Shown: positions 38,120 through 50,156 of the stretch, piece by piece
Numbering within the stretch: the stretch's first letter is position 1
How the letters are laid out: each line of letters opens with the position of its first letter
Source: Marinomonas rhizomae
Lineage (GTDB): Bacteria > Pseudomonadota > Gammaproteobacteria > Pseudomonadales > Marinomonadaceae
DNA: 64,000 nt
Assembly (NCBI RefSeq): GCF_003315485.1
Contig: NZ_QNSE01000005.1
Location: forward strand, 124,001 to 188,000
Direction: 5' to 3'
Program-made: the position numbers and the translations under genes
Notes under the pieces: model-generated
Told to the model about the DNA's origin: nothing
Databases searched by the model: none
The model's input: only the letters and a program-made list of their open reading frames with translations

Positions 38120-38860
38120 TTAGTCGGTTAATGGCTGATATTCTTGACCAGCCATAAAGCTATGCTGTAATTCTGTAGGTAAGCTTCCTTGTACTCTACA
38201 AAGCAATTTATAACTCTCAGGCGCTTCATTAGAAATTAGCTCCACACTAAAGCACATAGTATTCTGATTTTCAGTCAAAATAGAGAATAATTCTAACGAC
38301 AAATACCTAGGAATATACCCTAAGAGTTCTGGCGGATTTTGCGTACGAAGAAGAACCGCATTATTATCAAACTCATTCTGAATATCTAAGCATGCATATA
38401 GAACGTCTCCTGACTTAAGAGAATCAATTCGTTTTTGTGCGCTCTCTGGCAAATATCGGACACCATGAACAAAAAACACATGTTCAAATTCACCACCCTC
38501 CCCAAGCTCAATTTTAGGAAAAAGCTGTAAATTATCCGTGCCTCGAACGCCACCAGATCTGGTGAGCACGTCCATACTATTTGCTGTTTCATGATTTAAG
38601 CCCAACCACGAAATAAACTTAGGAAACTCCGGACGTTTGGAAGATAACAAACGATTTTGGAAAACAGGAAACAATCCTGAAGATCTATACTCCTTGGTTA
38701 AATTCTCCATTCCACTAAAAGGAACAAAGTTATTTGTCGCTCTGCTTCCTTGTGTATATCTAAAGGAATACTGCTCTTTTTCATACTCTAAAACGCCAAT
38801 CACATGCCAATCTCTTGAGTCTGGGTCTTGCCAAGTTAAGAATGCAGTTTGTTTATTCAT
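38120..38860 (-). CDS. HIRAN-domain protein linked to HipA-like kinase
   Basis: A 246-residue protein. The C-terminal half fits a HIRAN domain (HVFFVHGVRYLPESAQKRID, GDVLYACLDIQNEFDNNAVL then LRTQNPPELLGYIPRYLS), a small beta-barrel that binds 3' DNA ends in SNF2 proteins such as HLTF. The N-terminal half resembles the N-lobe cap of HipA proteins (GVLEYEKEQYSFRYTQGS, FPVFQNRLLSSKRPEF). Its ATG overlaps the stop of the upstream kinase by 8 nt, so the two are translated as a unit. It could be a split-off regulatory lobe or antitoxin of that kinase, as in tripartite HipBST-like systems. Function is inferred. Confidence 0.75.
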   Translation of the reverse strand: MNKQTAFLTWQDPDSRDWHVIGVLEYEKEQYSFRYTQGSRATNNFVPFSGMENLTKEYRSSGLFPVFQNRLLSSKRPEFPKFISWLGLNHETANSMDVLTRSGGVRGTDNLQLFPKIELGEGGEFEHVFFVHGVRYLPESAQKRIDSLKSGDVLYACLDIQNEFDNNAVLLRTQNPPELLGYIPRYLSLELFSILTENQNTMCFSVELISNEAPESYKLLCRVQGSLPTELQHSFMAGQEYQPLTD

Positions 38861-39799
38861 AATATTTTAATAACCTTTTTCGATTTTCAATAACCACCTT
38901 GTAGGCAAAATCTCTACCAATATCTGATATCAGATCAGGTGGTATTCGATCGAACACTCTCTTAATGTGTACTTCTGTGAGCAAGTCTAACGTTGATAGC
39001 CAGTGCTTCTTTGCTGCTGGATATTTCTGCACTGCGTGAATAAAAGCATCAACCGTTTTCATTGGTTTTTTGTCTGTTTTAAGTTTATATAACTGCGATT
39101 GCGCTTTTTGCACAAACTGCTCTATAGATCGATTTTTATCTTTGGTTGTCAATCTTTCATTACGCTCTTTATCTAATAACTCTCTACCCATACTTGCAGC
39201 ATGATCATAAGTTGGGCAGAGTCTAAAAGTAGCTTTTCCTTCTTGAGATTCAACTATCACAGCCCAATTTTCATGATGCCGATCTTGATTACTTATTAAT
39301 GCATCTAACATCAAATAACCACAAAAACTTCCGCCGCACCTAAACCATGCAAATCGAAATCTGACTTTGGCGGTAAAACCGCAGATAACTCAAGAAAAGC
39401 GAGCACTCTAGTAACTGTATGGCTGGTCACTTTTTGTTTATTGTCATAAAAATCAACAGGACGAGGGTATTCATCAGGATCATCTCTATGAAGCAGCTCA
39501 TTTCCCATCACTAAGTGTTCATTTTTATCAACAATATTAGGAGAAGTAACTCCGTACCTACCATTATGAATCGCAATATCGTAGTTGACATGAGGCAACC
39601 CCAATAATAAACATAACTGCTCGGCACACTTTTCAGACCAATGCTCTCCAGTATTCGGTCGAGAATATTTAAATAATGTACGTTGGTTATTTTTCGAAAG
39701 TAAATCTCGGAACCAAAACTTCTCTTTGGTTCCGAGTTGCTCTAAAAAATCGGCATTTTCAGTTAACGTTTGGACAATATATAAGTCTTCAACTTCCAT
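38853..39799 (-). pseudogene. HipA-like kinase gene with frameshift in a poly-T tract
   Basis: The N-terminal part (KEKFWFRDLLSKNNQRTLFK; EHWSEKCAEQLCLLLGLPHV; TRVLAFLELSAVLPPKSDFD) ends GLGAAEVFVVI and a stop at 39311. The C-terminal part in another frame starts CGYLMLDALISNQDRHHENW, the HipA-type catalytic loop (NQDRHHENW) and metal site (PTYDHAAS). Adding one T to the run of five (39323-39327 on the plus strand) restores VFCGYLMLDALI across the joint. So a single-base loss breaks an intact-looking kinase of about 314 residues. ATG 39799 has GAGG 8 nt upstream. Confidence 0.88.
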
Positions 39800-39836
39800 G
39801 TATCCAGCCTCATCCAATTATTAGTTACATTATGTT

Positions 39837-42655: not shown

Positions 42656-42682
42656 TGTAATAAATATTAACCCCACATCGTC
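42656..42682 (+). promoter_or_regulatory. ECF-type promoter of the bufferin sigma gene
   Basis: TGTAATAAATATTA (42656-42669) serves as -35-like box and CGTC (42679-42682) as -10-like box, about 29 nt before the sigma-factor ATG. The same two elements recur with identical spacing (CGTC begins 23 nt after the first T) at 43547-43573 before the precursor gene, indicating autoregulation. Confidence 0.75.
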
Positions 42683-42710
42683 TAACTATTACGCACACCT
42701 AGAGGCTTAA

Positions 42711-43340
42711 ATGATACATGCGAATGTTTCTGTTGAAGTAGATCAGTCTGCAGCAAAGAATATCTTTCAAGATGCTGTTTTTATTGAAGAATTACGTACA
42801 CAAATGTTCAAATTCGCTAAGCTTCAAGTGCGAGACAATCAATTAGCAGAAGACGCAGTACAAGAAGCTATGTTCTCTGCGTATCAAAATATTGAGCGTT
42901 TTGCACGACAGGCGGCATTTAAAACTTGGGTATTTTCCATTTTAAAGAACAAGATCATCGACTTATTACGCAAGGAAAAACGACATACCTCAGCAAGCCA
43001 ACTCGAAGATGGACCAAACCTAAGCGGTGAGGCATTACTAGAGCACTTATTCGAAGAAAATGGTCACTGGCAAAAGGATGAGCGCCCAAAGAAATGGGAC
43101 CAACCAGATCATGGCGTTGAAAATGAGCACTTTTGGCGTATTTTCGATGCATGTTTAGATGCTTTGCCAGCAAAATACGGTCGATTATTTATGATGCGTG
43201 AGTTTCTTGAGATGGATACTCCTGAAATATGTCATAACGAAGAGGTGTCGGTAAGCAGTCTAAATGTCACTTTATATCGTGCGCGTCTACGCTTACGAGA
43301 ATGTTTAGAAGATCACTGGTTTCAAAAGGAGAAGTCGTAA
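42711..43340 (+). CDS. ECF-type sigma factor of bufferin operon
   Basis: RNA polymerase sigma-70-family factor of 209 residues. Region 2 includes FAKLQVRDNQLAEDAVQEAM, then FKTWVFSILKNKIIDLLRKE. Region 4 follows at about 140-205 (LDALPAKYGRLFMMREFLEM, VSSLNVTLYRARLRLRECLE). AGAGG lies 5 nt before the ATG. It belongs to the sigma group that accompanies DUF2282/DUF692 gene clusters, such as Caulobacter SigF. The following gene is its probable anti-sigma factor, and the twin promoter boxes at 42656 and 43547 are its likely targets. Confidence 0.9.
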   Translation: MIHANVSVEVDQSAAKNIFQDAVFIEELRTQMFKFAKLQVRDNQLAEDAVQEAMFSAYQNIERFARQAAFKTWVFSILKNKIIDLLRKEKRHTSASQLEDGPNLSGEALLEHLFEENGHWQKDERPKKWDQPDHGVENEHFWRIFDACLDALPAKYGRLFMMREFLEMDTPEICHNEEVSVSSLNVTLYRARLRLRECLEDHWFQKEKS

Positions 43341-43341
43341 A

Positions 43342-43533
43342 ATGATAAAATGCAAACACGCGACCCAGATGCTTTCGGAGAAGCTCGATCGGCCTTTATC
43401 CACCAAAGAAAAAATGGCGCTTGCCATGCATACTGCGATTTGTGGACCTTGCCGTCAGTTTGGTAAACAAATGGAGACGATTCGAGAATTATCCAAGTCA
43501 TATGCCCAAGCAAAAGAACCGGAAGAAAAATAA
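43342..43533 (+). CDS. zinc-finger anti-sigma factor (zf-HC2)
   Basis: A 63-residue soluble protein with the HxxxCxxC zinc motif of ZAS anti-sigma factors (MHTAICGPC, residues about 29-37) and an N-terminal CKHATQML helix. It starts 1 nt after the sigma stop, with AGGAG overlapping the end of the sigma gene, so the pair is coupled. It has no membrane segment, unlike the DUF1109-type anti-sigma (NrsF) of Caulobacter SigF. It probably senses metal or thiol stress in the cytoplasm through its zinc site. Confidence 0.85.
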   Translation: MIKCKHATQMLSEKLDRPLSTKEKMALAMHTAICGPCRQFGKQMETIRELSKSYAQAKEPEEK

Positions 43534-43546
43534 ATTTTTATTTTTG

Positions 43547-43573
43547 TGTAATAAATTTTATCGCTATAACGTC
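43547..43573 (+). promoter_or_regulatory. ECF-type promoter of the bufferin precursor gene
   Basis: TGTAATAAATTTTA (43547-43560) and CGTC (43570-43573), with the same spacing as the copy at 42656-42682. It lies 64 nt before the precursor ATG, so the biosynthetic genes can be transcribed separately from the sigma genes under the same sigma factor. Confidence 0.78.
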
Positions 43574-43636
43574 AAAGAACAGTAACCAATTAAGATATTT
43601 CTGTCTTTCCCTTTTATGTTGAATGAGGATTTACCC

Positions 43637-43912
43637 ATGAAAAATACTAAAACATCTTTATCTCTTGCTCTTGGTACTGCTATTGCTCTTACTGCTGTTG
43701 CAGCTCCAGCTGAAGCGGCCAGTAAAGAAAAATGCTACGGGGTTGCATTGGCGGGTCAAAATGATTGTGCAGCAGGCCCAGGTACTTCTTGTGCGGGCAC
43801 ATCTAAAACAGATTATCAGTCAAACGCTTGGAAATTAGTGCCTGCTGGAACTTGTACCGACCTAGAGTCTAAAACATCGTCTACTGGCCACGGCCAATTA
43901 AAAGCCTTCTAA
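43637..43912 (+). CDS. bufA1: bufferin-type RiPP precursor (DUF2282)
   Basis: A 91-residue exported peptide of the DUF2282 family. A Sec-type signal peptide ([20 protein letters not shown], cleaved near AEA) is followed by a short mature part with four cysteines: KCYG, NDC, GTSC and GTCTDL. In studied bufferins the equivalent cysteines are modified by a DUF692/MNIO enzyme to give copper-binding heterocycles, protecting the periplasm from copper. GAGGA at 43625-43629 lies 7 nt before the ATG. Genes for the enzyme and its partner follow directly. Modification here is inferred from the family. Confidence 0.9.
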
Positions 43913-43924
43913 GACGAATAACCT

Positions 43925-44812
43925 ATGTCATCTCAGTCAATTCAAAGCCAAGGCGCTTCTGCGCCTTCGAGCTTTATCATAAAAACAGGCATTAGCCTTA
44001 AGCCTTCCTATTACCACGAAGTTCTCGATACTCGCCCTAACCTCGGCTTCTTTGAAGTTCACGCCGAAAATTACCTGAGCCAAGGCGGTCCTGCACGTCA
44101 TTACTTGCAAAAAATTCGTGAATTATATGCCTGCACAATCCACGGGGTCGGGCTATCTATTGGTGGAGAAATGCCACTAAATAAACAACACTTACATCGT
44201 GTTACTCAGCTTGTGAATGACATACAACCAGAGTTTTTTTCCGAACACCTTGCATGGTCAACACATGGCAACACCTTCTTAAATGATTTATTGCCAGTCG
44301 CTTACAACAAAGTATCGTTGAATCGAGTTTGTGACCATATTGATCAACTTCAAACGGCACTCAAACGTCGTATATTGATCGAAAATCCATCGACCTATTT
44401 CGAATACAAGCACTGTGACCGCAGTGAAACCGACTTCATTCGTGAAATGGTCCATCGCACAGGCTGTGGTCTACTACTGGATGTAAATAATGTCGAAGTA
44501 TCTTGCTTCAACCACCAAACAGACCCATACGTCTACATCAATGAATTTCCAAGCAATGCTGTCGGGCAAATTCATCTTGCTGGACACACGATAGATAACA
44601 ACCCGATCGTTCCGCTAAAAATAGACAGTCACGACGAACCAGTCTCTCCAGGCGTATGGGATTTATATCGACATACCTTGGCTACTATTGGCGATCGTCC
44701 AACATTAATTGAGCGAGATGGCAATCTACCTGCGTTAACAGAGTTATTGGCTGAAGCTCTACACGCTGACACGATAAGAGCTGCGGTTAAACAGGGAAAT
44801 GAAGATGAATAA
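43925..44812 (+). CDS. bufB: DUF692 multinuclear iron oxidative enzyme (MNIO)
   Basis: TIM-barrel enzyme of the MNIO family, 295 residues, that uses two or three iron ions and oxygen to modify cysteines of a precursor peptide. Probable metal ligands lie in FFEVHAENYL, IHGVGLSIGG, FFSEHLAWS, LIENPSTYF, LLLDVNNVEVS and IHLAGHTID, all conserved family blocks. It starts 12 nt after the precursor gene and overlaps the next gene by several codons, so the three form one translational unit. The substrate is almost certainly the DUF2282 peptide. Confidence 0.93.
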   Translation: MSSQSIQSQGASAPSSFIIKTGISLKPSYYHEVLDTRPNLGFFEVHAENYLSQGGPARHYLQKIRELYACTIHGVGLSIGGEMPLNKQHLHRVTQLVNDIQPEFFSEHLAWSTHGNTFLNDLLPVAYNKVSLNRVCDHIDQLQTALKRRILIENPSTYFEYKHCDRSETDFIREMVHRTGCGLLLDVNNVEVSCFNHQTDPYVYINEFPSNAVGQIHLAGHTIDNNPIVPLKIDSHDEPVSPGVWDLYRHTLATIGDRPTLIERDGNLPALTELLAEALHADTIRAAVKQGNEDE

Positions 44813-45560
44813 ATCTTTTAAATCTGCCTTATTTAATCAAAATAATGACTTTTACGAAGCAATGAAAGGCGACTCAGACAGCGAAAAAGAAGCGCGTTTT
44901 AACGTATATCGCAACAATGTTTTTGTATCATTAATAGATTCTCTAGCCGATATTTTCCCTGTAACACAAACTATTGTTGGTGAAGATTTTTTCCGTGCTA
45001 TGGCGCGTGAGTTTATCCAACTTAATCCCCCTATATCACCGATAATCAGTGATTATGGTGACAACTTCACCGACTTTATTCGTCATTTTGAACCAGCGAA
45101 AAGCGTGTCATTTTTAGGTGATCTTGCTGCTCTTGAGTTTAGTCTTTTGACGCTTACTAATGCTCAAGAGAACAAAACGCTTGAACGCGAAGACGTTGTA
45201 GCGGCATTTAATAACATATCCGATCCAGCCAACTTATACCTTACCTTATCGCCAACAACACAAATTCTTGTTGCGCCATTTGCAATTGGGTCAATTTACC
45301 TAGCTCATAAAAATAGCAAAAGTTGTTCGTTAACTGATATAAGGATAGAGGAAAGCGAGCTCTTACTTCTGTCAAAGTCTCATTTGTTCGCTGAAGTGCA
45401 TATTGTTAGTCGCGCAGATGCCGTTTTCATCAAGCATCTTATGCAAGGTAAAGCATTTGGTGAAGCAATACCTGACGATAATGATTTTGATCCCGGCTCC
45501 AGTTTGGCAAAACTCATTGATTGGAGGCTTCTCACGAAAATCTCTGAAGCTGGCGCCTAA
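44805..45560 (+). CDS. bufC: DUF2063 partner protein of the MNIO
   Basis: A 251-residue protein with an N-terminal DUF2063 domain (EARFNVYRNNVFVSLIDSLA, then FPVTQTIVGEDFFRAMAREF and ISDYGDNFTDFI). The C-terminal half is a RiPP-recognition-like beta domain. In bufferin and related systems this partner binds the precursor leader and presents it to the MNIO. ATG 44805 is preferred over 44799 because AGGGA (44793-44797) is 7 nt upstream. It overlaps the end of bufB by 8 nt. Confidence 0.9.
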   Translation: MNKSFKSALFNQNNDFYEAMKGDSDSEKEARFNVYRNNVFVSLIDSLADIFPVTQTIVGEDFFRAMAREFIQLNPPISPIISDYGDNFTDFIRHFEPAKSVSFLGDLAALEFSLLTLTNAQENKTLEREDVVAAFNNISDPANLYLTLSPTTQILVAPFAIGSIYLAHKNSKSCSLTDIRIEESELLLLSKSHLFAEVHIVSRADAVFIKHLMQGKAFGEAIPDDNDFDPGSSLAKLIDWRLLTKISEAGA

Positions 45561-45587
45561 AAGAAAACCAATAATAAGGGGCAACCT

Positions 45588-46061
45588 ATGATGTCTGCTA
45601 TGCTACAAACGACTGAGAATATATTTAAAAAAATACCCGAATCCTTAATTTTATTCGTGGCACGTTTTTCTATTGCTGCGGTGTTTTGGAAAGCTGGGCA
45701 AACAAAAATAGAAGGCTTTTCGTTGGATATTATCGCAATGAAAATGCAGCTAGGCTGGCCACATTTAAAAGAGTCTACCCTGTTTCTGTTTGAGTATGAA
45801 TATAATCTGCCATTGTTATCACCAGTCATTGCGGCAACTTTAGCCACTTTGGCAGAACATATTTTGCCTATTTTAATTTTGAGTGGATTTTTGACACGCT
45901 TTGCCGCGCTTGGTTTAGCGGGAATGACTTTAGTGATTCAGCTTTTTGTCTACCCAGATGCTTACCCAACCCACGCCACATGGCTAACGATAGCCTTGTT
46001 AATAATGTGGCGTGGTGCAGGTGCTTTTTCTTTAGATCGTTTGATATTTAAACGTGAATAA
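45588..46061 (+). CDS. DoxX-family membrane protein
   Basis: Four-helix inner-membrane protein of 157 residues (LILFVARFSIAAVFWKAGQT, LLSPVIAATLATLAEHILPI, LTIALLIMWRGAGAFS). DoxX proteins are frequent last genes in DUF2282/DUF692/DUF2063 clusters, and their exact role is open (quinone-linked or redox partner). AAGGGG lies 6 nt before the ATG and 27 nt after bufC, so it belongs to the operon. It converges with the chemoreceptor gene across only 5 nt. Confidence 0.9.
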   Translation: MMSAMLQTTENIFKKIPESLILFVARFSIAAVFWKAGQTKIEGFSLDIIAMKMQLGWPHLKESTLFLFEYEYNLPLLSPVIAATLATLAEHILPILILSGFLTRFAALGLAGMTLVIQLFVYPDAYPTHATWLTIALLIMWRGAGAFSLDRLIFKRE

Positions 46062-46066
46062 ACTTC

Positions 46067-47698
46067 TTACTTAGCCGGCAAGATAAACGTCGACGTCGCT
46101 TCGTCTGTTTGCTCTGCAGCACCAGATAAAGCGTCAGTGAGTTTACTCAAACGTTTTGATGTTTGCTCATTGCTGACTGTGACTTCCACAATACGCGTGA
46201 CATGCTCAGCAATATCATTCGCTTCCCTTGCCTGTTGTTGAGCTAATTGCGACAAATCATCGAGACTTTCTAATGACTTGGCAGCATCTGCTTCTAACTG
46301 GCTAAGAGGCGCGACAACATCTTCGATTTGCGCGACACCATGACGCATTTTTTCTTGACCTTGCACCATTTCATTAGAAATTTGCATCGACAAACTACTA
46401 ATAGTGGTAATCACTTTATCAATGGAAGCCGTCACTTCCGCTGTGTTCGTTGCCAAATTCCGAACTTCATCGGCAACTACGGCGAAACCTCGACCACTCT
46501 CTCCGGCACGAGCGGCTTCGATAGATGCATTCAGTGCTAAAAGATTCGTCTGTTCTGCAACATTACGAATGCTGTTCACAAATTCAGTTACCGTCATGGC
46601 ACTTTGATTTAACTCAGCAACCGCTTGGGACGTTTCTTCTATATAAGCCGCCACAGCGGTAATGTCCGTTGCTGCTGAAGTAATCACTTTTTTACCGTGT
46701 TTGGCCAAACCATGCGCATCTTCGGCTTGATTACGCGATACGCTGACGTGATCTGCCATAACATTCGCAGCATTAGACAATTCACTAACAGAACCTTGAA
46801 TGTCACTCGCCATAACCGCTTGAGCATTAGAGCCGTGGTTAACATCCGCCACATTAGTACGAATCTCCTCCACCGCGCTCACCACTGTTTTAGCGCTTCT
46901 ATCAATTTTCATGACAACATCAGCTAAACTGATTTGCATACGCTTAACACTCTCGAGTAACTGGCCAATCTCGCCCTTCTGCTCAGAGGTAATGTTTTGA
47001 GAAAGGTCACCATGAGCAAATTTGTCTAACAGGGCAATCACATAATTCAGTGGATTAACAATGCTGCGAGAGATCAAAACCGACATTACCAAACCAATTA
47101 GAACCGCGAGAAGACCAACACCTACCGTTAACCAAATGGCTAATTCAGATTCAGACAAGACTTTCTGCTGACGCTGTTGCATCAGATCACGTTGGTATTC
47201 AGACAACGCAGACGTCTGTTTTAAAAACGTTTGTAATTCATTACGAGTAGTACCAGCCATCAATTTTTTAGCTTCTTCAAGTTCACCGAACTCTAACGCC
47301 TCGACGGTTGCCTGAAGAGCTTCCTGATAGACCTTACGTTGTTTTTTTAACCCTTCAATACTGCCCTTATCTTTTGGGGTGTGTACCAACAGAGCCATTT
47401 TCTCAAGACTGCTGTCTAGATTTCTATTGCGTTCATCAATTTCTTTATAAATTGCTACCCGAGCATCTCGCTCTTCCAGAACGAACAGTAATAACAAACG
47501 ACTTGCCAAGCTTTCCGCATTCACATTCAGTTCACCAGTCAGCTCCACCAAAGCAGCATTCTCATCAACGATACTGCGGATGTTACCGGACAAAAGCTGA
47601 AAACGACTGACGGATAACACAACCACCAAGACCAATAATGCCAATAACACTAAATAGCTCGCTCTTAGACGAGCACGAATACTAGTAACCCCCCGCAT
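46067..47698 (-). CDS. methyl-accepting chemotaxis protein
   Basis: Transmembrane chemoreceptor of 543 residues. Helix TM1 is at about 13-31 ([17 protein letters not shown]). A periplasmic four-helix-bundle sensor follows to about 185, then TM2 ([20 protein letters not shown]). A HAMP domain continues ([20 protein letters not shown]). The signalling tip is [20 protein letters not shown]. The C-terminus lacks the NWETF-type CheR-binding pentapeptide. Ligand is unknown. Confidence 0.93.
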
Positions 47699-48028
47699 AG
47701 AAAACCCTCTTTTATAAATAATATGGATCTGACAATAGCACTATCCTAGACGTTGGATAACATCAATTTATTACAGATCATAAGATTTATCACGAAAACA
47801 GACATTTAGTTGAGTAAAAGGCTCTTTCATACCTCAAGGAACTCGAATGTTTTCAAAGAAATTCAAATAAAAGCAATGTAGACCATTCTGTAGCTAAGCC
47901 AATATGGTAGGGATAAGAAGAGGAGAGGCCTAAGGTAAAGTAAGTCTTATTAAACATAGAAAGGACAGATAATGTTATCTGCCCTTAGTGGTAGTAGCCG
48001 CCATAATACTTATGTTTCAGCACTGGCT
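47699..48028. other. 330-nt intergenic region
   Basis: Lies between two minus-strand genes, so it holds the chemoreceptor promoter and the heme oxygenase 3' end. GGGCAGATAA/TTATCTGTCC (read on the minus strand, 47985-47964) forms a hairpin followed by TTTCT, a plausible weak terminator for the heme oxygenase gene. Nothing else is recognised. Confidence 0.45.
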
Positions 48029-49107: not shown

Positions 49108-49671
49108 TTATTCTTCATATTCCACACCGACTTCCCCAGAAAGTCTCTTATCCAACACAACAGAATGATAAAGCAGGCGATTTATGGACGTCGATTCCAT
49201 TTTTTTACTGCCCAACAAACCACTGTTTATTATCAAATCATCATTGTAACGGCATAACTGAATAACTAAAAAGGAGGCCGTATTGCTATCGGGGTCTTCT
49301 TCTGGCATTTGATCTGAATAGTACTTCCCAGAGCTCTTTTCAGCACAGACATCGCTTATCTCTCCCCGCCTAATGGGCGACCAATCCATTGATCTATCTA
49401 TATTGACCTTGGATACAATCAATTCATACTCTTCACCCACTGAGTTATCAATGATGTGTTCAATTAAATAGTCAAAACTGTCGGCATTCCACTCCTGCTG
49501 ATTGGCCAAAATAGAAGCAAGATTATGAGATGCCTGCTCCATATCGCCCCTCATACGATTGATGTTGTATAAGTCGGTGCTTACTAACAATATTCCAAAC
49601 ATTATGGGGAGCGACAAAGCAAATTCAATAACGGTTGCCCCGCTTTCGTTGGCTAAAAAGCGTCGGCGCAT
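49108..49671 (-). CDS. tadF: Tad pilus minor pilin-like protein TadF
   Basis: Pseudopilin-like membrane protein of 187 residues, last in the tad operon. The N-terminal TadE/F-like segment is NESGATVIEFALSLPIMFGI, where G-A-T-V-I-E-F resembles a prepilin cleavage and Glu+5 site. A helical stretch and a periplasmic domain with two cysteines follow. It overlaps the upstream tadE stop by 1 nt. It is needed with TadE for pilus assembly in studied systems. There is no tadG after it. Confidence 0.82.
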   Translation of the reverse strand: MRRRFLANESGATVIEFALSLPIMFGILLVSTDLYNINRMRGDMEQASHNLASILANQQEWNADSFDYLIEHIIDNSVGEEYELIVSKVNIDRSMDWSPIRRGEISDVCAEKSSGKYYSDQMPEEDPDSNTASFLVIQLCRYNDDLIINSGLLGSKKMESTSINRLLYHSVVLDKRLSGEVGVEYEE

Positions 49672-50156
49672 TAGGCTTCGTCTCCTAACAGATCGCCTAA
49701 AACGTGTCGGTATTCATGCTGGAATGAATCACCGAGGCCAAAAAACTGAGGCAATGGCGTTATAAAATTCTCATTTAGATACACACTAAAGTTAAGAATT
49801 GGCAAAGAGTAGTACGTATTTTCAGACTCTTTGACATCTGCAAATTCATTTAGGTTTGAGAATCGCTGTAATTCAATTTGAATACTGTCTTCATGAATCA
49901 TATTAAATGAGTGCGCAATGATATTTTCACTTGTCGTGGTTTTTATCTCTTCTTCAGTTAAGGTATTAAACAGAGCATCTTCTCTAAAACTCTGCACACT
50001 TTGCTCAATAGAAACGTCAACTAAGGTAATAACAAGTGCGATTCTTGCCAGCTCAAAAAACATCATCAATATAAATAAAATCACGGGGAATATAAGAGCC
50101 ACTTCGATTGAAACAACGGCATCTTTATTCCTTAAAAAATGCGCAATAGAGCCCAT
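49671..50156 (-). CDS. tadE: Tad pilus minor pilin-like protein TadE
   Basis: TadE-like pseudopilin of 161 residues. The N-terminal processing/hydrophobic segment is NKDAVVSIEVALIFPVILFI, with a Glu after the V-x-I stretch, followed by LMMFFELARIALVITLVD. It joins the Tad machine at the inner membrane. The start codon overlaps the tadD stop region by 1 nt, showing tight coupling. It was told from TadF by position and the shorter periplasmic part. Confidence 0.82.
   Translation of the reverse strand: MGSIAHFLRNKDAVVSIEVALIFPVILFILMMFFELARIALVITLVDVSIEQSVQSFREDALFNTLTEEEIKTTTSENIIAHSFNMIHEDSIQIELQRFSNLNEFADVKESENTYYSLPILNFSVYLNENFITPLPQFFGLGDSFQHEYRHVLGDLLGDEA

Follow-up and report, generated by a model that had tools for sequence, protein, structure and literature searches.

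A predicted ECF sigma promoter type shared by a bufferin operon and a neighbouring chemoreceptor gene in Marinomonas rhizomae

In a 64,000-nucleotide stretch of Marinomonas rhizomae DNA (contig NZ_QNSE01000005.1, positions 124,001 to 188,000; hereafter the window), a complete bufferin gene set, consisting of an extracytoplasmic function (ECF) sigma factor, a ZAS protein, a DUF2282 precursor, an MNIO enzyme, a DUF2063 protein and a DoxX protein, adjoins a gene for a chemoreceptor. The regulator, peptide and chemoreceptor genes are all preceded by one and the same promoter-like sequence, and one stress-released regulator therefore likely switches on both peptide and receptor. We consider it probable that a single ECF sigma, held by the ZAS protein, uses a shared promoter type to transcribe its own gene, the bufferin operon and the chemoreceptor gene next door, and such a regulator would likely control both copper trapping and swimming behaviour. 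This reading draws on the genes and their families, on three exact promoter-like elements in the window, on the conservation of such sites across the genus and on the co-occurrence of receptor and bufferin genes, all of which can be read directly from the DNA. Work on bufferins treats them as chelators of copper; in the present case a bufferin operon appears to be joined, in a sigma/ZAS regulon of the methionine-repair type, with a receptor that, in 48 genomes of the genus, was never found without the bufferin enzyme.

The three elements, each an exact match and each predicted to be an ECF promoter, are P1 before the sigma gene (GTAATAAAT-N13-CGTCTAAC, 42657..42686, plus strand), P2 before the precursor gene bufA (GTAATAAAT-N13-CGTCAAAG, 43548..43577, plus strand) and P3 before the chemoreceptor gene (GTAATAAAT-N13-CGTCTAGG, 47745..47774, minus strand). 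The pattern GTAATAAAT-N13-CGTC, which was derived from the window and then applied elsewhere, has just three exact matches in the window, at 42657-42682, at 43548-43573 and, on the opposite strand, at 47774-47749; the mean in shuffled sequence was 0.02, and three matches were reached in 0 of 100 shuffles. The organism's own genome holds four exact matches, the fourth lying near a contig end with no gene readable behind it. The interval 42656..46061, where the sequence-only reading had placed a bufferin operon, begins one base ahead of P1.

For the comparison across the genus, taken as the grouping given by the genome collection (48 genomes), a strict site was defined by a fixed GTAA, up to 3 mismatches to GTAATAAAT, a spacer of 12-14 and CGTC. 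Among 26 loci of the genus, the window included, strict sites were found upstream of 23 sigma genes and 21 bufA genes, and upstream of 9 of the 14 receptor genes of the same loci. None stood upstream of the control genes: prlC (0/25), gCA, ZAS, MNIO, bufC and doxX (0/26 each) and heme oxygenase (0/8). When the upstream regions were shuffled by moving two-base blocks, 56 of 13,200 carried a strict site. The genus-wide form of the pattern, GTAAKAAA-N13/14-CGTCWAA, gave 131 matches in the 48 genomes, as against 9 for its reverse, and was present in 40 of the 43 genomes with the sigma factor and in one of the five without it.

The chemoreceptor gene (46067..47698, minus strand) is convergent with doxX, only 5 nucleotides away, and encodes 543 residues in which domain models recognize a 4HB_MCP_1 sensor, a HAMP domain and an MCP signalling domain. 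It lies beyond 42656..46061 and was absent from the gene list of the sequence-only reading, so the new part of the finding sits partly outside that interval. With cut-offs of E <= 1e-40 for the receptor sensor and E <= 1e-90 for the bufferin enzyme, the receptor was found in 29 and the enzyme in 35 of the 48 genomes; all 29 receptor genomes have the enzyme, and none of the 13 genomes without it has the receptor (Fisher p 1.4e-7, uncorrected for descent). Since 8 of these 13 keep the sigma factor and yet none has the receptor, the receptor tracks bufferin rather than sigma. Strict sites lie ahead of 22 of the 29 receptors (21 in the main scan plus that of genome G004), with a single hit in the reversed control of the main scan. 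Beyond the genus, a search of the order (293 genomes, E <= 1e-35) returned receptor relatives in two genomes from a single other genus; the receptor gene of each adjoins a bufferin operon, either divergently or one gene apart. No sigma or ZAS match was found in the 16 kb read at these two loci, and no such site before their receptor or bufA genes; the two loci thus favour a receptor-bufferin link that is independent of the sigma factor. At the level of the class (369 genomes), two weak receptor matches were obtained besides the own genome, and the 14 and 18 kb read around them held no bufferin genes.

The genes behind the sites suggest a regulon that is wider than the operon. Genes were read behind 74 of the 131 genus-wide matches (71 loci, some genomes being counted twice): a solute-binding protein in 19 cases, MsrA in 13, VTT/DedA in eight, a chemoreceptor in eight, MsrB in four, sigma in four, bufA in three, a small membrane protein in two, single genes in seven, no gene in four and MNIO in two, the last two being in fact bufA sites assigned to MNIO, the short bufA having been passed over. 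The singles include an MsrP-like protein of the own genome, and a second MsrP-like protein was recognized by eye at a locus where no gene had been called (L127). Pfam backs the solute-binding, MsrA, VTT, SelR and molybdopterin families behind the sites, and the names MsrP and DedA were assigned from Pfam domains. In the own genome msrA lies at C13:62037, directly behind a site at C13:61850, and across the genus the same predicted promoter type stands before sigma and before msrA and msrB. The claim that the operon has its own sigma factor holds only in part: 8 of the 43 sigma-bearing genomes of the genus lack the bufferin enzyme, and sites also precede methionine-sulfoxide repair genes. The regulon therefore seems to be a larger one, to which the bufferin operon belongs.

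Some further observations concern these sites. The solute-binding protein is the gene most frequent behind the ECF-type site (L090-L158), and in two loci read a permease-like open reading frame comes next. At L121 (1129-4212) the gene behind the site, VTT/DedA, leads a run of genes, two of whose members have no Pfam match, while at L144 (1091-3241) a VTT domain is fused to a pyridine nucleotide-disulphide oxidoreductase behind a promoter match. In Rodentibacter mrazii (L227, 6112) a GTAA-N-CGTC site precedes msrA, which fits the Haemophilus RpoE2 regulon. Several single clusters behind sites, and an antisense match in a uvrB-like stretch (L098/L155), look like chance and were set aside.

As for the operon itself, the six genes are on the plus strand in the order that the sequence-only reading had given, and the family models agree with its identification of a bufferin system. 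The sigma factor (42711..43340, 209 residues) has Pfam Sigma70_r2 and r4_2 domains and scores 334.3 bits with NCBIfam NF009196 (cut-off 287). The ZAS gene (43342..43533, 63 residues) follows after 1 nucleotide; its product, a predicted anti-sigma, scores 31.9 bits with Pfam zf-HC2 (cut-off 22.2) and 76 with NCBIfam antisigmaE (cut-off 50). Next are bufA (43637..43912), encoding a DUF2282 bufferin precursor of 91 residues, bufB (43925..44812), encoding the MNIO (DUF692) maturase with 354.5 in the NCBIfam bufferin maturase model (cut-off 310), bufC (44799..45560), which overlaps bufB by 14 nucleotides and encodes the DUF2063 partner protein, and the gene for a DoxX-family membrane protein (45588..46061). 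All six proteins passed the Pfam cut-offs; those of NCBIfam were passed by the sigma factor, the zf-HC2 protein and the MNIO, the HvfC and HvfX models remaining below cut-off for the DUF2063 and DoxX proteins, and no NCBIfam model in the scan of the operon proteins matched the precursor. The probable start of bufA is the ATG at 43637, with GAGGA upstream, rather than the start of the longest reading frame at 43616. Its four cysteines (33, 44, 52 and 73, numbered in the longest frame after trimming to ATG 43637) are conserved without exception in the 35 sequences aligned, that of the window among them, and a Sec-type signal peptide was called by eye, as had been proposed. With a bufferin-type MNIO and a DUF2063 partner, these are features of a Buf1 cluster. 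The MNIO is the only one above cut-off in the own genome and has 3bww, 8hci and MbnB as solved relatives; a sequence search returned no solved relative for the DUF2063 protein. In an uncultured Vibrio record (L172, 9856-11346) four tandem bufA-like genes precede the MNIO gene and adjoin sigma and ZAS genes. What the sequence-only reading had described as a single directional run is one in terms of order and strand, but more than one transcription unit is probable: because the promoter-like element of the sigma gene recurs in the 103 nucleotides that separate the ZAS stop codon from bufA, the six genes probably do not form one unit.

The anti-sigma had been described as a soluble zinc-finger protein in place of NrsF, and this is borne out. 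No operon protein matched NrsF in the Pfam scan, and the gene after sigma, where an anti-sigma with several membrane segments would be expected in an NrsF system, is that of the 63-residue zf-HC2 protein, which has no membrane segment as judged by eye. This small protein carries the ZAS motif C/H-x(23-26)-H-x3-C-x2-C beside the sigma gene, and its C4, H30, C34 and C37 are invariant in 10 of 10 aligned sequences. These are the positions reported for Neisseria MseR (Cys4 and His30-x3-Cys34-x2-Cys37), whose cysteines are important or essential for activity (PMC2893595; this and the other papers cited are drawn on from parts of their text). The suggestion that a soluble ZAS is a departure peculiar to this locus did not hold. 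Since MseR and the 67-residue HrsE of Haemophilus, whose sigma factor rises in expression with HOCl and H2O2 (PMC7907618), are already small ZAS anti-sigmas, the arrangement is of a known kind. Moreover, a genome scan confirmed at least 342 sigma relatives, and in 80 of the best 80 of these, the named loci, a ZAS match with H-x3-C-x2-C lies directly downstream of sigma; an MNIO match was also present in the stretch read for 28 of these best 80. Among the matches listed, the sigma relatives at 66-93% identity were mostly from Marinomonas records. A search for solved relatives of the ZAS protein gave, amid thioredoxin-like entries, a marginal match only, RsiW (E 0.7).

In the mechanism that we favour, the cytoplasmic ZAS protein would hold the sigma factor inactive, by analogy with MseR, HrsE and RsrA-type proteins, and would release it upon cysteine oxidation or zinc loss, i.e. 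under thiol oxidation or metal stress. The freed sigma factor would transcribe its own gene, the bufferin operon and the chemoreceptor gene, and may also activate periplasmic methionine-sulfoxide repair genes elsewhere in the genome; we infer that copper buffering and a chemoreceptor belong to a sigma/ZAS regulon for methionine repair in the periplasm. Going by the bufferin papers, the exported peptide would gain thiooxazoles on its middle cysteines and buffer periplasmic copper, and the receptor, made under stress, may steer the cell relative to the stress source. Since MsrA, MsrB and an MsrP-like gene share the site type, oxidant damage seems the likelier trigger, with copper perhaps acting via oxidation; such a signal is not assured, because neither peroxide nor diamide nor singlet oxygen elicited a response from meningococcal sigmaE. 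Only tentatively would we go further and propose a dedicated bufferin-associated chemoreceptor that reads the stress itself, as periplasmic copper, oxidant or copper-loaded bufferin, and thereby unites buffering and escape swimming in one regulon under metal or oxidant stress. If this were true, defence and escape would be on one switch, and a marine genus would offer a place to test what the receptor binds and whether bufferin acts as a signal.

A number of results weigh against the shared control that we propose. Strict sites are absent upstream of 3 of the 26 sigma genes and 5 of the 26 bufA genes, and of the named loci, 79 (from the best 80 of at least 342) reached far enough upstream to be scanned, a site preceding sigma in only 10 of them, all from Marinomonas or its near relative Maribrevibacterium; sites before bufA were seen in two Vibrio loci of that scan. 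Allowing one mismatch yields 9 matches in the own genome as against 8 for the reversed pattern, and allowing two yields 4 in the window, a number that 9 of 100 shuffles also reached; because these looser counts are not enriched, only the exact matches and the conservation carry weight. Others of the results would suit a sigma/ZAS pair whose control extends to its own genes, the repair genes and the bufferin operon but no further, with the chemoreceptor a passenger whose promoter is common by descent or chance. The receptor is absent from 6 of the 35 bufferin genomes, and 7 of the 29 receptors lack a strict site, two of these having one change in GTAA (G010, G021) and five (G002, G007, G020, G058, G060) showing by eye a site of usual spacing whose -10 core differs at one position, an after-the-fact observation that we left uncounted. 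Where receptor and operon adjoin, a single deletion takes both, and the two are missing together as one block. In the three sister genomes G061, G026 and G066, which also count in favour of the proposed link, both are gone and heme oxygenase directly follows ZAS. On a PrlC tree (40 rows), which is not fully independent of the locus because PrlC is nearby, there are at least 5 state changes for bufferin and 10 for the receptor, and in 5 independent pairs the receptor changed along with bufferin in 4.5 on average and in none against it, for a descent-corrected p of 0.0625 at best. We nevertheless regard a passenger as unlikely, given the exact site before the receptor in the window, the strict sites before receptors that are 30 kb or more from the operon or on other contigs (G009, G059, G016, G019) and the other genus, whose two genomes have the receptor by bufferin genes with no sigma or ZAS match in the 16 kb read.

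The nature of the signal and of the ligand can be argued separately. A zinc site is open in principle to attack by copper, and the ZAS zinc could accordingly be displaced by copper to free the sigma factor in a dedicated copper response, the repair genes being side members; bufferin products do bind copper (PMC12452194, PMC13097082). We find this rather unlikely, considering that oxidant repair genes and no copper pump were among the genes annotated behind 74 of the 131 matches, that eight genomes have the sigma factor without the bufferin enzyme and that the related Haemophilus sigma factor answers to HOCl and H2O2 (PMC7907618). It is quite possible, on the other hand, that the receptor ligand is an ordinary organic compound and that the tie to bufferin comes from a shared habitat, not from copper or oxidants. 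The sensor model, built from a single sequence and confident in one of five cases, resembles the sensors of MCP2201 (malate/citrate) and Vc1313 (D-amino acid), and residues 31-189 of the window's receptor contain no cysteine and a single, unconserved histidine. Such a ligand fits less well with the placement of the receptor behind a stress-sigma promoter and with its strict co-occurrence with bufferin. A methionine pair, M101/M147, present in 29 of 29 receptors, was considered as a hint of a copper or oxidant sensor and dropped, M101 being Leu in the other genus.

Elsewhere in the window, two adjoining open reading frames at 38853-39817 (minus strand), one with a sub-threshold match to the HipA C-terminal domain, may be a split HipA-like gene, and a gene for a HIRAN-domain protein follows. 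At 49108-50156 (minus strand), one open reading frame has weak, sub-threshold TadE/TadF matches and its neighbour has none.

Among known systems, the surveyed bufferin clusters share the core of precursor, MNIO, DUF2063 and DoxX, and sigma genes occur in Buf1 clusters (PMC12452194); that survey names NrsF as the anti-sigma, and the parts of it examined mention neither ZAS nor a chemoreceptor. The bufferins themselves have modified central cysteines, with the first and last in a disulphide (PMC12452194), and thiooxazoles and copper binding are described for them (PMC13097082). In Caulobacter, likewise, an ECF sigma, sigmaF, governs DUF2282-DUF692-DUF2063-DoxX genes as well as a YedY-type gene, whereas its anti-sigma NrsF, unlike the Marinomonas ZAS, spans the membrane with six segments and has cysteines that face the periplasm, and no chemoreceptor is among the regulon rows examined (PMC3511200). 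Caulobacter does have McpR, a chemoreceptor tied to copper and oxidant stress, which is cytoplasmic and has a copper-binding C75/H99 (PMC10579534), whereas the Marinomonas receptor has a 4HB sensor with HAMP and no cysteine in the residues checked. By title and abstract opening, none of the papers listed joins bufferin or DUF692 with chemotaxis or a chemoreceptor, or an ECF sigma with a chemoreceptor and copper (the plural 'bufferins' was covered from 2024 on, and most subscription papers were outside the scope); the top publication from 2024 on, in the parts available, mentions bufferins once and cites McpR. Haemophilus influenzae RpoE2/HrsE is similar in its cytoplasmic ZAS and in a sigma that drives itself and msrAB; what is described beside it is msrAB with a dmt transporter instead of a bufferin operon (PMC7907618). 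A parallel that extends to the ZAS positions is Neisseria sigmaE/MseR (NMB2140-2145, PMC2893595), an ECF sigma and small ZAS that is autoregulated and controls msrA/msrB, with a -10 CGTCTAA, the published motif being GTMAGBWTT / CGTCTAAH with a spacer of 12-13. The Neisseria sigma operon itself includes a DoxX-like gene, NMB2140 (PMC2893595), and a DUF2063 gene, NGO1945 (PMC3511200). In Marinomonas, by contrast, the sigma-ZAS pair and the bufferin genes each have a predicted promoter, and a chemoreceptor, a solute-binding protein and others have the same type of site.

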